Source: Sulfurospirillum sp. (GTDB taxonomy: Bacteria; Campylobacterota; Campylobacteria; Campylobacterales; Sulfurospirillaceae). From it: 34,833 bases of DNA. A program made the position numbers and the translations under genes. The notes below the pieces were generated by a model, which worked only from the letters and a program-made list of their open reading frames with translations, did no database searches and was not told the DNA's origin. Within the stretch, counting starts at the first letter, position 1. Each line of letters opens with the position of its first letter. This document shows positions 13,812 through 19,828 of the stretch, in pieces. Location of the stretch: contig JAGOZL010000011.1 of the NCBI GenBank assembly GCA_018058685.1, positions 1-34,833 on the forward strand, given 5' to 3'.

Positions 13812-13819
13812 ACATGTAA
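13810..13819. repeat. TTACATGTAA palindrome copy, between terminator and start codon
   Basis: This perfect 10-bp palindrome shares its first bases with the terminator T run and its last A with the ATG of the downstream gene. It is one of 15 perfect copies in the window. Confidence 0.85.
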
Positions 13820-14694
13820 TGTCTTTTTCACCCTCGCCCTTTCAAAAACACTCTTTCAATGGACATACGTTTTATCTCAAACGAGATGATTTGCTTGACC
13901 CAAACTTTTCAGGTAACAAAGCACGCAAGTTTTATCACTTTTTGGTGCATGATTTTCCCTCCATCAAATGTCTCGTGAGTTATGGCTCAAACCAATCCAA
14001 TGCGATGTACTCACTCTCTGTGTTGTGTGCGATGAAGGGGTGGGAATTTATCTATTTTTGTGACCATGTTCCAACATTTTTGCGTGAACATCCCGTGGGA
14101 AATTTTCACTATGCCTTGCAAAATGGGATGAAACTTCGCACCTCATCTGCCAAAAAAGAAGAAGCTTTATGCTTGGTGGATAAACAAACACTTTTTGTAG
14201 AAGAAGGTGGTAGGCAAGAAGAGGCGGAGCTTGGGATAAAACATCTTGCGGATGAACTTGGGGTCGATATTAAGAACGCTCACATTAAAAATCCGTTTAT
14301 CTTTTTACCCTCAGGTACAGGAACAACAGCACTTTTTTTGCAAAAATATTTATCCTATCCTGTCTTTACATGTAATACCGTGGGCGATAGTCTGTATTTA
14401 CAAAAACAGTGGGAGATGCTTCCTCCTCAAGCGTGTTATCCCAAAATACTTGAAACCTCAAAAAAATACCATTACGGAAAGCTTTATCCTAAACTGTACA
14501 GCCTTTGGATGAGGCTTAAAGAGCAGATGGGCGTTGAGTTTGATTTGGTGTATGACCCTGTGGGATGGAGCGTTTTATTGGAGCATATCGAGCGTTTAGA
14601 GGGTACGCCCATTTATATTCATCAAGGTGGACTCTTAGGTAATATCTCTATGGAAGAGCGCTATAAGCGAAAAAAAACTATAATAAAAGCCTGA
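13819..14694 (+). CDS. ACC deaminase / D-cysteine desulfhydrase family PLP enzyme
   Basis: This 291-residue fold-type II PLP enzyme is related to 1-aminocyclopropane-1-carboxylate deaminase and D-cysteine desulfhydrase. The PLP Lys is Lys34 in FSGNKARKF, preceded by LKRDDLLDP, and a glycine-rich phosphate loop (PSGTGTTA) follows. The substrate is not determined by sequence. The start is odd: the ATG directly follows the fba terminator and palindrome, no ribosome-binding site is visible, and the in-frame sequence upstream reaches a stop at 13795 without another start. Expression may therefore be low, leaderless or read through. A second palindrome at 14366-14375 is read as Thr-Cys-Asn. Confidence 0.82.
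   Translation: MSFSPSPFQKHSFNGHTFYLKRDDLLDPNFSGNKARKFYHFLVHDFPSIKCLVSYGSNQSNAMYSLSVLCAMKGWEFIYFCDHVPTFLREHPVGNFHYALQNGMKLRTSSAKKEEALCLVDKQTLFVEEGGRQEEAELGIKHLADELGVDIKNAHIKNPFIFLPSGTGTTALFLQKYLSYPVFTCNTVGDSLYLQKQWEMLPPQACYPKILETSKKYHYGKLYPKLYSLWMRLKEQMGVEFDLVYDPVGWSVLLEHIERLEGTPIYIHQGGLLGNISMEERYKRKKTIIKA
14679..14684 (+). promoter_or_regulatory. Candidate -10 box for hisD-panE-mogA
   Basis: TATAAT within the last codons of the upstream gene lies 23 bases before the hisD ATG. A strong ribosome-binding site (AAGGAGAAAC, 14697-14706) follows. No clear -35 is seen. Confidence 0.4.
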
Positions 14695-17472: not shown

Positions 17473-17498
17473 AAGAAGCCTTACATATAAGGCTTCTT
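17473..17498 (-). terminator. Hairpin terminator between mogA and the riboswitch-linked dctP
   Basis: This is a perfect 11-bp stem (AAGAAGCCTTA 17473-17483, TAAGGCTTCTT 17488-17498) with a 4-base loop. A T run follows on the minus strand only, so it chiefly ends the dctP transcript, whose stop codon lies in the stem. The mogA transcript runs into the same stem without a T run. Confidence 0.8.
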
Positions 17499-18549
17499 AG
17501 TGACTCACTGTTTTGAGATAATCAAACTCTCCTATCATACTCCATGGTCTAATTTTTGCCATATACGCACGTTGTGATTCTAAAATTTCACGGTATTGAG
17601 CGTCTTTATTGGCTTGTTCTTCTTCAACTACGTGTGCTGAACGCTTGAGTGCATCCATAACATCGTTTGGAAAATGGTTGATTTTAATGTGAGGATACTC
17701 TTTTTGCATCTGTGCCCATGTCTTAGCATTGGCATCATTGGAAGCATCTAAAAGTTCTCTTGCGGTGATTTTAATGGCACTTTCTAAAATGGCTTTTAAA
17801 TCCTCAGGTAAAGTGTCTAGCTTTTTTTTGTTGATAAGATACTGTCCTTCACCACTGGGTTTACTCCACCCTGTGTAATAATACGGCGTAAGTTTATGAA
17901 AACCCATTGCCATATCAAACGCAGGACTTATCCACTCCACCGCATCTAATAACCCTGTCTCCATTGCCATATAAAGTTCTCCTGGTGGAGTACTGAGGGC
18001 ATTGACACCAAGTCGTGCCATGACATCACCCCCTTGCCCTGAGATGCGAATTTTGAGCCCTTTTAAATCATCAAGAGATTTAATCTCTTTTTTGAACCAT
18101 CCTCCCATCGACATGCCGACACTTCCCCCAGGATATGCGACTAAGCCATAAGGCATATACACTTTTTCAAACAGCTCTTTTCCACCACCGTGATAATACC
18201 AAGCGTACTGTTCTTGCGTGTTCATCCCAAAGGGTGTTGTCATAAAAAAGACCAATTTATAATCTTTGCCCTTGTAGTACACGGATGTGGTATAGCCGAT
18301 ATCATATAAGCCTTCTTTCACCATATCCATAATACCCAAGGGTGCTTTATGTTTTTGAGGAAAATCGACTTTGATTTTAAGCCTGCCATTAGACATTGCA
18401 TCAGCAAGTTTGGCTACTTTATGTGGAGCAGTACCTAGAAAAGGGATCTGTTCTCCCCATGAAGAGGCAAGTGTGAGGGTGTAGATTTTTGGTTCAGCAA
18501 AAACAAAACTTGAAGATAGAAACAAGATAAAGAGTACGAAACGCATCAT
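17497..18549 (-). CDS. TRAP transporter solute-binding protein (DctP family), TPP-riboswitch-linked copy
   Basis: The 350-residue periplasmic binding protein has a signal peptide (MMRFVLFILFLSSSFVFA). The DctP fold is evident from the FKKEIKSLDDLKGLKIRI motif, whose Arg binds the ligand carboxylate in the family, and from the STPPGELYMAMETGLLDAVEW motif. It resembles the oxo-acid-binding (TakP-like) branch. It is a close paralogue of the neighbouring protein at 18764-19828 across its whole length. No DctQ or DctM membrane subunit gene is in the window, so its partner lies elsewhere. A TPP riboswitch lies in its leader, which links it to thiamin status. A strong AAAGGAAAA ribosome-binding site precedes the start. 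Confidence 0.88.
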   Translation of the reverse strand: MMRFVLFILFLSSSFVFAEPKIYTLTLASSWGEQIPFLGTAPHKVAKLADAMSNGRLKIKVDFPQKHKAPLGIMDMVKEGLYDIGYTTSVYYKGKDYKLVFFMTTPFGMNTQEQYAWYYHGGGKELFEKVYMPYGLVAYPGGSVGMSMGGWFKKEIKSLDDLKGLKIRISGQGGDVMARLGVNALSTPPGELYMAMETGLLDAVEWISPAFDMAMGFHKLTPYYYTGWSKPSGEGQYLINKKKLDTLPEDLKAILESAIKITARELLDASNDANAKTWAQMQKEYPHIKINHFPNDVMDALKRSAHVVEEEQANKDAQYREILESQRAYMAKIRPWSMIGEFDYLKTVSH

Positions 18550-18558
18550 TTTTCCTTT

Positions 18559-18568
18559 TTACATGTAA
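18559..18568. repeat. TTACATGTAA palindrome copy in the riboswitch leader
   Basis: This copy is part of a perfect 12-bp TTTACATGTAAA and lies between the TPP aptamer and the ribosome-binding site of the dctP gene, touching the latter. Confidence 0.85.
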
Positions 18569-18601
18569 ATGTGCAGGATAAATGGAAGAATAGAAAAAGA
18601 A

Positions 18602-18700
18602 GAAGGCTTTCCTACGCTGGCATTATCCAGATCAGGTCAAGGATTCAAAGGTTTTACCTTCATCTCAGCTGATGGTATCAGCACTCCTAGCACTAAAGTT
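18602..18700 (-). promoter_or_regulatory. TPP (THI-element) riboswitch
   Basis: Read on the minus strand, the sequence has the two universally conserved THI cores in order: CAGCTGAGATGAAGG (pyrimidine-sensing arm) and, after a variable P3 arm, ACCTGATCTGG followed by ATAATGCCAGCGTAGGAAAG (pyrophosphate-sensing arm). Only GGAA replaces GGGAA at the end. It lies about 50 bases upstream of the dctP gene at 17497-18549 and downstream of the terminator of the other dctP gene, so it belongs to the former. No terminator with a T run follows the aptamer, so control of translation initiation is more likely than attenuation. This is an inference. Confidence 0.93.
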
Positions 18701-18722: not shown

Positions 18723-18754
18723 AAAAAAAACAAGAGGAGGAAATTACCTCCTCT
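18723..18754 (-). terminator. Rho-independent terminator after the first dctP paralogue
   Basis: An 8-bp G/C-rich stem (AGAGGAGG 18733-18740, CCTCCTCT 18747-18754) is followed on the minus strand by a run of eight T (plus-strand A run 18723-18730). It separates the two dctP transcripts. Confidence 0.88.
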
Positions 18755-18763
18755 GAAAGTATA

Positions 18764-19828
18764 TTATTTTTCGAGTTGTTTTAAGTAGCCGTATTCACCC
18801 ATGAGTGTCCAAGGACGTACTTTTGCTAAGTATGCACGTTGTGACTCTAAAATCTCTTTAAAGACAGGGTCTTTTGCAGCTTGTTCATCTTCAATTTCAC
18901 GTGCCGCTTTTTTGAGTGCTGCCATAACATCGGATGGAAATTGTTGAACTTTGACATTAGGATATTCTTTAGAGATATTTGCCCATGCTTCAGCATTCGC
19001 GTGTGTGGCTTGTTCCATCAATTTACTACCAATCGTACTAACGGCTGCCTCTAAAATCGCTTTTAAATCAGCGGGTAGGGCATTAATTTTTTTATTGTTT
19101 GCAAGAAGTTGAATCTCACTTGCAGGCTCTTGCCAACCTGTATAGTAGTAATTGGCTAGTTTATGAAAGCCCATAGCAAAGTCAAATACAGGAGAAATCC
19201 ACTCAACCGCATCAATCGTGTTACGCTCTAGTGCGGTGTAAAGCTCACCTGGAGGTGTACTCATCGCATTAACACCGAGCTTTGCCATCACTTCACCACC
19301 TTGACCAGGAATACGGAATTTTAAGCCTTTAAGATCATCGAGTGATTTAATCTCTTTTTTAAACCAACCGCCCATTTGCATCCCCGTTGTTCCCATAGGA
19401 TACGATGTGAGTCCATGCTCGCCATACACTTTAGCGGCTAATTCTTTACCGCCACCAAAGTTATACCAAGCGTATTGCTCAGAGATAAGCATACCAAAAG
19501 GAACAGTGGTGAAGAACACAAGTTTATAATCTTTACCTTTATAATAATACGAAGCGGTGTACGCTAAGTCGTATTGACCAGCTTTGACCATATCCATCAC
19601 ACCAAAGGGTGATTTATGTTTGTTGGGTGAATCAACCTTGATTTTGAGGCGACCATTGGACATCGTGTCAACTAATTTTGCTAAATCTGTAGGCGCAGTT
19701 CCTAAAAAAGGTACTTGCTCTGCCCATGTGGTAGCAAGGGTTAAGGTATAGGTCTTGTTATCATTGGCTGCAAAAGCAGACGTGATAACACTGAACATAA
19801 AAGCACATAGCATTAAAACGAAACGCAT
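18764..19828 (-). CDS. TRAP transporter solute-binding protein (DctP family), constitutive-looking paralogue
   Basis: The 354-residue periplasmic protein has a signal peptide (MRFVLMLCAFMFSVITSAFA). It has the same domain motifs as its tandem paralogue (FKKEIKSLDDLKGLKFRI, STPPGELYTALERNTIDAVEW) and near-identical N-terminal, central and C-terminal blocks. Differences cluster around the presumed ligand pocket (GGSVGMSMGG versus MGTTGMQMGG) and in residues 260-300. There is no riboswitch in front of it. A promoter-like TATAAT overlaps the valS stop and a GAGGAG ribosome-binding site precedes the ATG. The ligand is probably a small carboxylate. No membrane TRAP subunits are nearby. Confidence 0.88.
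   Translation of the reverse strand: MRFVLMLCAFMFSVITSAFAANDNKTYTLTLATTWAEQVPFLGTAPTDLAKLVDTMSNGRLKIKVDSPNKHKSPFGVMDMVKAGQYDLAYTASYYYKGKDYKLVFFTTVPFGMLISEQYAWYNFGGGKELAAKVYGEHGLTSYPMGTTGMQMGGWFKKEIKSLDDLKGLKFRIPGQGGEVMAKLGVNAMSTPPGELYTALERNTIDAVEWISPVFDFAMGFHKLANYYYTGWQEPASEIQLLANNKKINALPADLKAILEAAVSTIGSKLMEQATHANAEAWANISKEYPNVKVQQFPSDVMAALKKAAREIEDEQAAKDPVFKEILESQRAYLAKVRPWTLMGEYGYLKQLEK

Follow-up and report, generated by a model that had tools for sequence, protein, structure and literature searches.

A TPP riboswitch before a duplicated TRAP solute-binding protein gene in Sulfurospirillum, with a predicted role in the uptake of a carboxylated thiamin precursor

Why should a TPP riboswitch precede a gene for a TRAP solute-binding protein, when we know of no TRAP system among the known TPP-controlled transporters of vitamin B1? 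The question is raised by a locus in a 34.8-kb stretch of Sulfurospirillum DNA (hereafter the window; its genome is designated G000), for which a sequence-only reading had proposed that a TPP aptamer (THI element) follows the terminator of an upstream gene, that it serves the dctP gene beyond it (here dctP1), and that the TRAP protein was recruited to the uptake of thiamin or a related compound. That reading had suggested a check against the Rfam TPP covariance model, and in a cmscan search of the whole window the single match above its gathering score was RF00059, the TPP family, at 18698–18592 on the minus strand, with 72.3 bits against a cut-off of 54.3, an E-value of 1.5e-12 and coverage of model positions 1–105, the full length. 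Across the three dctP1-linked sequences described below, each from a different species, the aptamer helices are paired in 100% of cells and three pairs have changed on both sides; for this small sample of three sequences, shuffled versions averaged 1.0 such pairs, with 13 of 500 reaching as many, and slid versions gave 0–1. Since the E-value, the three conserved copies and the covariation together exclude chance, the TPP riboswitch (18592–18698) is certainly real, its membership among TPP aptamers being given by both the covariance model and compensatory change.

The features of this locus all lie on the minus strand. Upstream, the gene dctP2 (18764–19828) is followed by a hairpin resembling an intrinsic terminator, with an 8-bp stem and a T8 tract (18733–18754), the aptamer begins ∼35 nt past this hairpin, and 42 nt containing no other ORF separate the 3′-end of the aptamer from the ATG of dctP1 (17497–18549), as the sequence-only reading had placed it; a further terminator-like hairpin follows dctP1 (17473–17498). 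The order of genes and aptamer is the same in two related genomes, G002 and G014, in which an 11-bp terminator-like hairpin stands immediately before the aptamer. These hairpins (L032:4939–4963 and L033:5143–5167) abut the aptamer and leave almost no room for a dctP1 promoter, and none was found between the upstream terminator and the aptamer. Because the aptamer lies ∼40 nt before dctP1 in all three genomes with nothing between them, it is close to certain that the riboswitch serves dctP1, and the alternative that it belonged to a lost thi gene with an unrelated dctP beside it is ruled out on the same ground. Elsewhere in the window, positions 13819–14694 of the plus strand encode a 291-aa protein that is kept beside hisD and an aldolase gene in related genomes; it has no Pfam match and weakly resembles the D-cysteine desulfhydrase family.

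How the aptamer could act on dctP1 is suggested by predicted folds of the leader, where no intrinsic terminator was found between aptamer and dctP1 to serve as an expression platform. In the aptamer-bound fold the Shine-Dalgarno sequence of dctP1, AAGGA (18553–18557), is predicted to be paired in a hairpin whose anti-Shine-Dalgarno arm includes UUAUCC (18576–18581), the exact complement of GGAUAA in the P5 region of the aptamer (18623–18628). In a predicted TPP-free hairpin, CUUUUUCUA (18591–18599) would instead pair with UAGGAAAG (18607–18614), an aptamer 3′ strand common to the aptamer helices and the alternative hairpin. Both UUAUCC and CUUUUUCUA are identical in the three species, within a tract of ∼30 nt downstream of the aptamer that is nearly invariant, and in all three leaders the aptamer's GGAUAA and UAGGAAAG can pair with the downstream UUAUCC and CUUUUUCUA, an alternative pairing that would free the Shine-Dalgarno sequence from the hairpin formed when the aptamer is folded. 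Folding energies decide neither switch state, as the predicted free folds still pair the Shine-Dalgarno sequence and the minimum-energy folding of the leader (z of 0.08) is uninformative as proof of a switch. From the predicted pairings we infer OFF switching at translation.

The gene under this control encodes a 350-aa protein with a typical N-terminal signal sequence, a Pfam DctP match (7.4e-45) and an AF2 model (pLDDT 87) whose closest folds are 5cm6, 4pet, 7ug8 and 2hzk at a TM of about 0.9; by its Pfam match, solute-binding protein fold and Arg168 it is a DctP-type TRAP solute-binding protein. What the sequence-only reading missed is that the gene upstream of the aptamer is a second dctP (dctP2, Pfam DctP 1.3e-53), 63% identical to dctP1 and with canonical cation-site residues, and it overlooked both the tandem paralogue that is the reason dctP1 exists and the question of a partner. 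Its proposal to look for the same pairing in related genomes was borne out in our survey of 24 Sulfurospirillum genomes, where aptamer and dctP1 occur together in G000, G002 and G014 only, with dctP1 proteins 82–84% identical. In 13 genomes of the genus dctP2 is an orphan; its neighbourhood, where read, is valS-dctP2-mogA, and in the three genomes dctP1 is inserted after dctP2. The dctP1 sequences are monophyletic (support 100/100), and the branch leading to them measures 0.72, compared with about 0.01–0.11 for dctP2 tips, whereas dN/dS among the dctP1 orthologues is only 0.05–0.07. The gene is thus a tandem duplicate of dctP2 that, on this pattern, diverged into a different function after duplication and has since been maintained by purifying selection. 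As the three host genomes do not group together in the ThiD and ValS trees, dctP1 was either often lost or else transferred.

Within the 24 genomes, TPP aptamers precede thiC, the thiD-cytX-thiM operon, the thiFGH operon (G002 only) and dctP1. Among the aptamers of the genus, those of dctP are closest to those of thiD (72–80% identical), with GTGCTAGGAGTGCTG common to both, and unlike those of thiC, such that the simplest origin of the dctP1 aptamer would be a copy of the thiD-cytX-thiM leader. No further close dctP1 was found in a scan of 84,980 species, and none of the 52 other homologue-bearing Campylobacterota genomes has a TPP aptamer adjoining the dctP1 homologue. At the newly fetched TPP loci, which belong to the best in the phylum, the genes downstream are thiC, thiD, thiM and cytX, a pair that is apparently of the ThiXYZ type, a gene that looks like thiN and one for a membrane protein without a name (several of these genes were named by eye from their N-termini), which places CytX and the apparent ThiXYZ-type pair under TPP control in related genomes. 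Apart from dctP1, no TRAP gene was found under a TPP aptamer among the genes examined in the genus and the sampled phylum, which are thi genes, other transporters or membrane proteins. A link between TPP and TRAP across the wider family is thus ruled out by the 52 homologue genomes and by the fetched loci, and a search of the open-access literature for papers that connect TPP riboswitches to TRAP genes found none, its one match being unrelated. One fetched aptamer stands before a 466-aa, apparently membrane protein (L165:1641–3041) that has no Pfam match at E 1e-8 and may be a B1-related transporter not yet recognised as such.

The binding pocket of TakP holds pyruvate through Arg177, Tyr100 and a cation on Gln156, Glu214, Glu240 and the Trp215 carbonyl (PMC1839085), and TRAP receptors select carboxylates through the conserved Arg, according to the accessible text of PMC4646407. 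Mapped by equal spacing and by alignments with 4pet, 5cm6, 7ug8 and 4yzz, the equivalents in dctP1 are Arg168 (Arg177), Tyr91 (Tyr100), Ser147 (Gln156), Glu205 (Glu214), Trp206 (Trp215) and Lys230 (Glu240). The carboxylate-binding Arg is present in all 93 sequences compared, and dctP1 also keeps Tyr91, Glu205 and Trp206. The TakP-type cation site (Gln156, Glu214, Trp215 O, Glu240) is broken by Ser147 and Lys230, which occur in all three dctP1, the Gln and Glu being found in 90 of 90 other homologues, dctP2 and dctP3 included. Two more near-universal residues are altered, a pocket-strand Tyr to Val90 and a Gln to Leu81; the AF2 model is least certain at residues 92–94, which adjoin Val90 and Tyr91. 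In our reading of these replacements, Lys230 would take the place of the cation and the ligand would still be a carboxylate, though a different one; a new specificity for dctP1 is likely. The proposed recruitment to B1-related uptake survives in part, being consistent with the duplication, with the altered pocket and with the association with thiazole gene loss described next, whereas thiamin itself is not supported, as it lacks a carboxylate for the retained Arg to bind.

All three dctP1 genomes are without the usual type of thiG, which is present in 20 of the 24 genus genomes and follows purN in those read. The loss is proven in two of them: both the complete chromosome of G002 and the G000 sequence have purN directly joined to a Pro-His-Arg-Arg-Leu tRNA array, and the usual thiG is gone. 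No ThiG or ThiH was found in the G014 assembly, from which purN is missing too, pointing to a possible assembly gap, and the loss of its native thiG was for that reason withdrawn as firm evidence. G000 has other thiazole genes, thiS-thiG-thiH (L138), unlike the thiF-thiG-thiH of G002; the ThiG of both is only 43–45% identical to the usual ThiG, and no ThiH above the family cut-off was found in the other genus genomes. The G002 thiF-thiG-thiH genes (L042:2952–5449), under their own TPP riboswitch (G002:C1:1525701–1525801), replace the purN-linked thiG. If the genomes were independent, the co-occurrence of dctP1 with loss of the usual thiG would have a P of about 0.002–0.004, a correlation weakened by the shared history of the three related genomes on which it rests. 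Since the usual thiG is lost or changed in them, the dctP1 genomes are those with a disturbed thiazole supply. The gene thiM, needed for thiazole salvage, is present in G014 and G002, while the G000 contig ends inside cytX; in one genus genome thiM is apparently broken into two frames (G005:C1:1138607–1139174).

The balance of likelihood favours a thiamin precursor as the ligand of dctP1, and cHET is our leading candidate and best single guess, and only a guess. cHET is 5-(2-hydroxyethyl)-4-methylthiazole-2-carboxylate; the thiazole synthase of bacteria yields cHET-P. We single it out by chemical reasoning, because the carboxylate that Arg168 requires adjoins the ring nitrogen where pyruvate has its keto oxygen. 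As far as the accessible text of PMC5899164 goes, sub-picomolar cHET can be used by E. coli lacking thiG, HET giving no notable growth up to 10^5 pM, and Ostreococcus needs ThiM to use cHET; in low-oxygen or oxygen-minimum sea water cHET is present at pM levels, up to tens of picomolar (PMC12236431). The case for cHET import is weakened by G000 and G002 themselves, which still have ThiG and ThiH and need not import thiazole. It is possible rather than probable that DctP1 works as a TRAP receptor independent of a cation, with cHET or a closely related compound as its ligand.

The search for dctQM that the sequence-only reading had advised found none adjoining dctP1 and a DctQM pair encoded elsewhere in the genus. 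The TRAP locus of the genus reads kinase-regulator-[dctP3]-dctQ-dctM-FAD-oxidase, and G000 has its DctQM pair beside dctP3 (G000:C13). In G006, G007, G009 and G018 (L046, L047, L048 and L049) no dctP lies between the response regulator and dctQ, and an orphan dctP2 is found elsewhere in the genome; dctP2, and by descent dctP1, therefore probably feeds the genus DctQM.

Taken together, the explanation we favour, to which we give an even chance, is that of a TPP-repressed TRAP receptor with a predicted new specificity for a carboxylated thiamin precursor. The gene dctP1 would have been born by tandem duplication of dctP2, a 2-oxo-acid-type TRAP receptor, and would have acquired control by an aptamer akin to the one before thiD-cytX-thiM. 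At low TPP the conserved alternative hairpin would occupy the anti-Shine-Dalgarno arm and dctP1 would be translated; at high TPP the aptamer would fold, the arm would close the ribosome site and synthesis of DctP1 would stop. The secreted DctP1 would capture the precursor via Arg168 and the new Lys230 in place of a cation and hand it to the DctQM membrane pair encoded elsewhere, and in the cell cHET could then be processed by ThiM and ThiE.

Other readings of the same evidence differ mainly in the ligand. DctP1 could bind another B1-related molecule, such as HMP carboxylate or another degradation product, a phosphate (HMP-P or TMP) held on Arg168 and Lys230, HET, or thiamin. TPP control and the second positive charge that Lys230 brings to the pocket speak for this reading, but thiamin, HMP and HET have no carboxylate, CytX already covers HMP uptake in G014 and G000, and the association with thiG favours thiazole over pyrimidine, so that we regard it as unlikely. 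We think it unlikely that DctP1 still imports a 2-oxo acid, with the switch coupling that import to thiamin synthesis, where pyruvate goes into deoxyxylulose phosphate, or to the enzymes that depend on TPP. Such a ligand would suit the closest solved relatives of dctP1, which are 2-oxo-acid receptors, the retention of Arg168, Glu205 and Trp206, and the FAD-linked oxidase of the D-2-hydroxyacid kind adjoining the DctQM locus. Against it, two of the side chains that hold the cation, invariant across the 90 other homologues, are substituted in every dctP1, the 2-oxo-acid site is retained by dctP2 and dctP3 in the same genomes, and pyruvate, a central metabolite, is a poor target for TPP repression.

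The riboswitch might even have hitch-hiked with a rearrangement and have no physiological link to the function of dctP1. Only three genomes carry the pair and the aptamer resembles a copy from another operon, as that account would have it; the helices kept by paired changes, the nearly identical ∼30-nt downstream tract, the purifying selection on dctP1 and the absence of any thi remnant between aptamer and dctP1 make it very improbable.

If DctP1 does prove to be a cation-independent receptor for cHET or a closely related compound, it would be the first TRAP transporter known to carry a precursor of a vitamin, as well as the first protein named for uptake of the carboxylated thiazole half of vitamin B1. 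Many microbes are fed by B1 vitamers, cHET among them, that circulate at picomolar levels, and the B1 transporters listed in the accessible parts of the literature serve thiamin or pyrimidines, with none named there for the thiazole half. DctP1 and its unchanged parent DctP2 also offer a direct comparison, both for testing the ligand and for asking how the cation site can be given up in a TRAP receptor.

Riboswitch and protein are each of a known kind, and it is their union, together with the altered pocket, that is new as far as the open-access literature and the examined genomes show. As in other RF00059 THI elements, the aptamer is full length, with standard helices and conserved cores, and lies ∼40 nt before a start codon; the difference is that the controlled gene encodes a TRAP solute-binding protein. 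With the TakP-type 2-oxo-acid receptors (2HZK/2HZL, 7UG8, 4PET, 5CM6) dctP1 shares the fold (TM 0.88–0.92), 29–46% identity, the Arg and the Glu214 and Trp215 equivalents, and it departs from them in the changes of Gln156 to Ser and Glu240 to Lys, which remove two cation ligands, and of the neighbouring Tyr to Val. With the TPP-controlled B1 transporters CytX, ThiXYZ, ThiBPQ, ThiT, PnuT, ThiV and omr1 (general knowledge and PMC10881298), it has in common a transport function under TPP control. Finally, the use of cHET at very low external concentration in salvage through ThiM implies efficient uptake, and since the accessible text of PMC5899164 names no cHET transporter, DctP1 is a candidate for that part.
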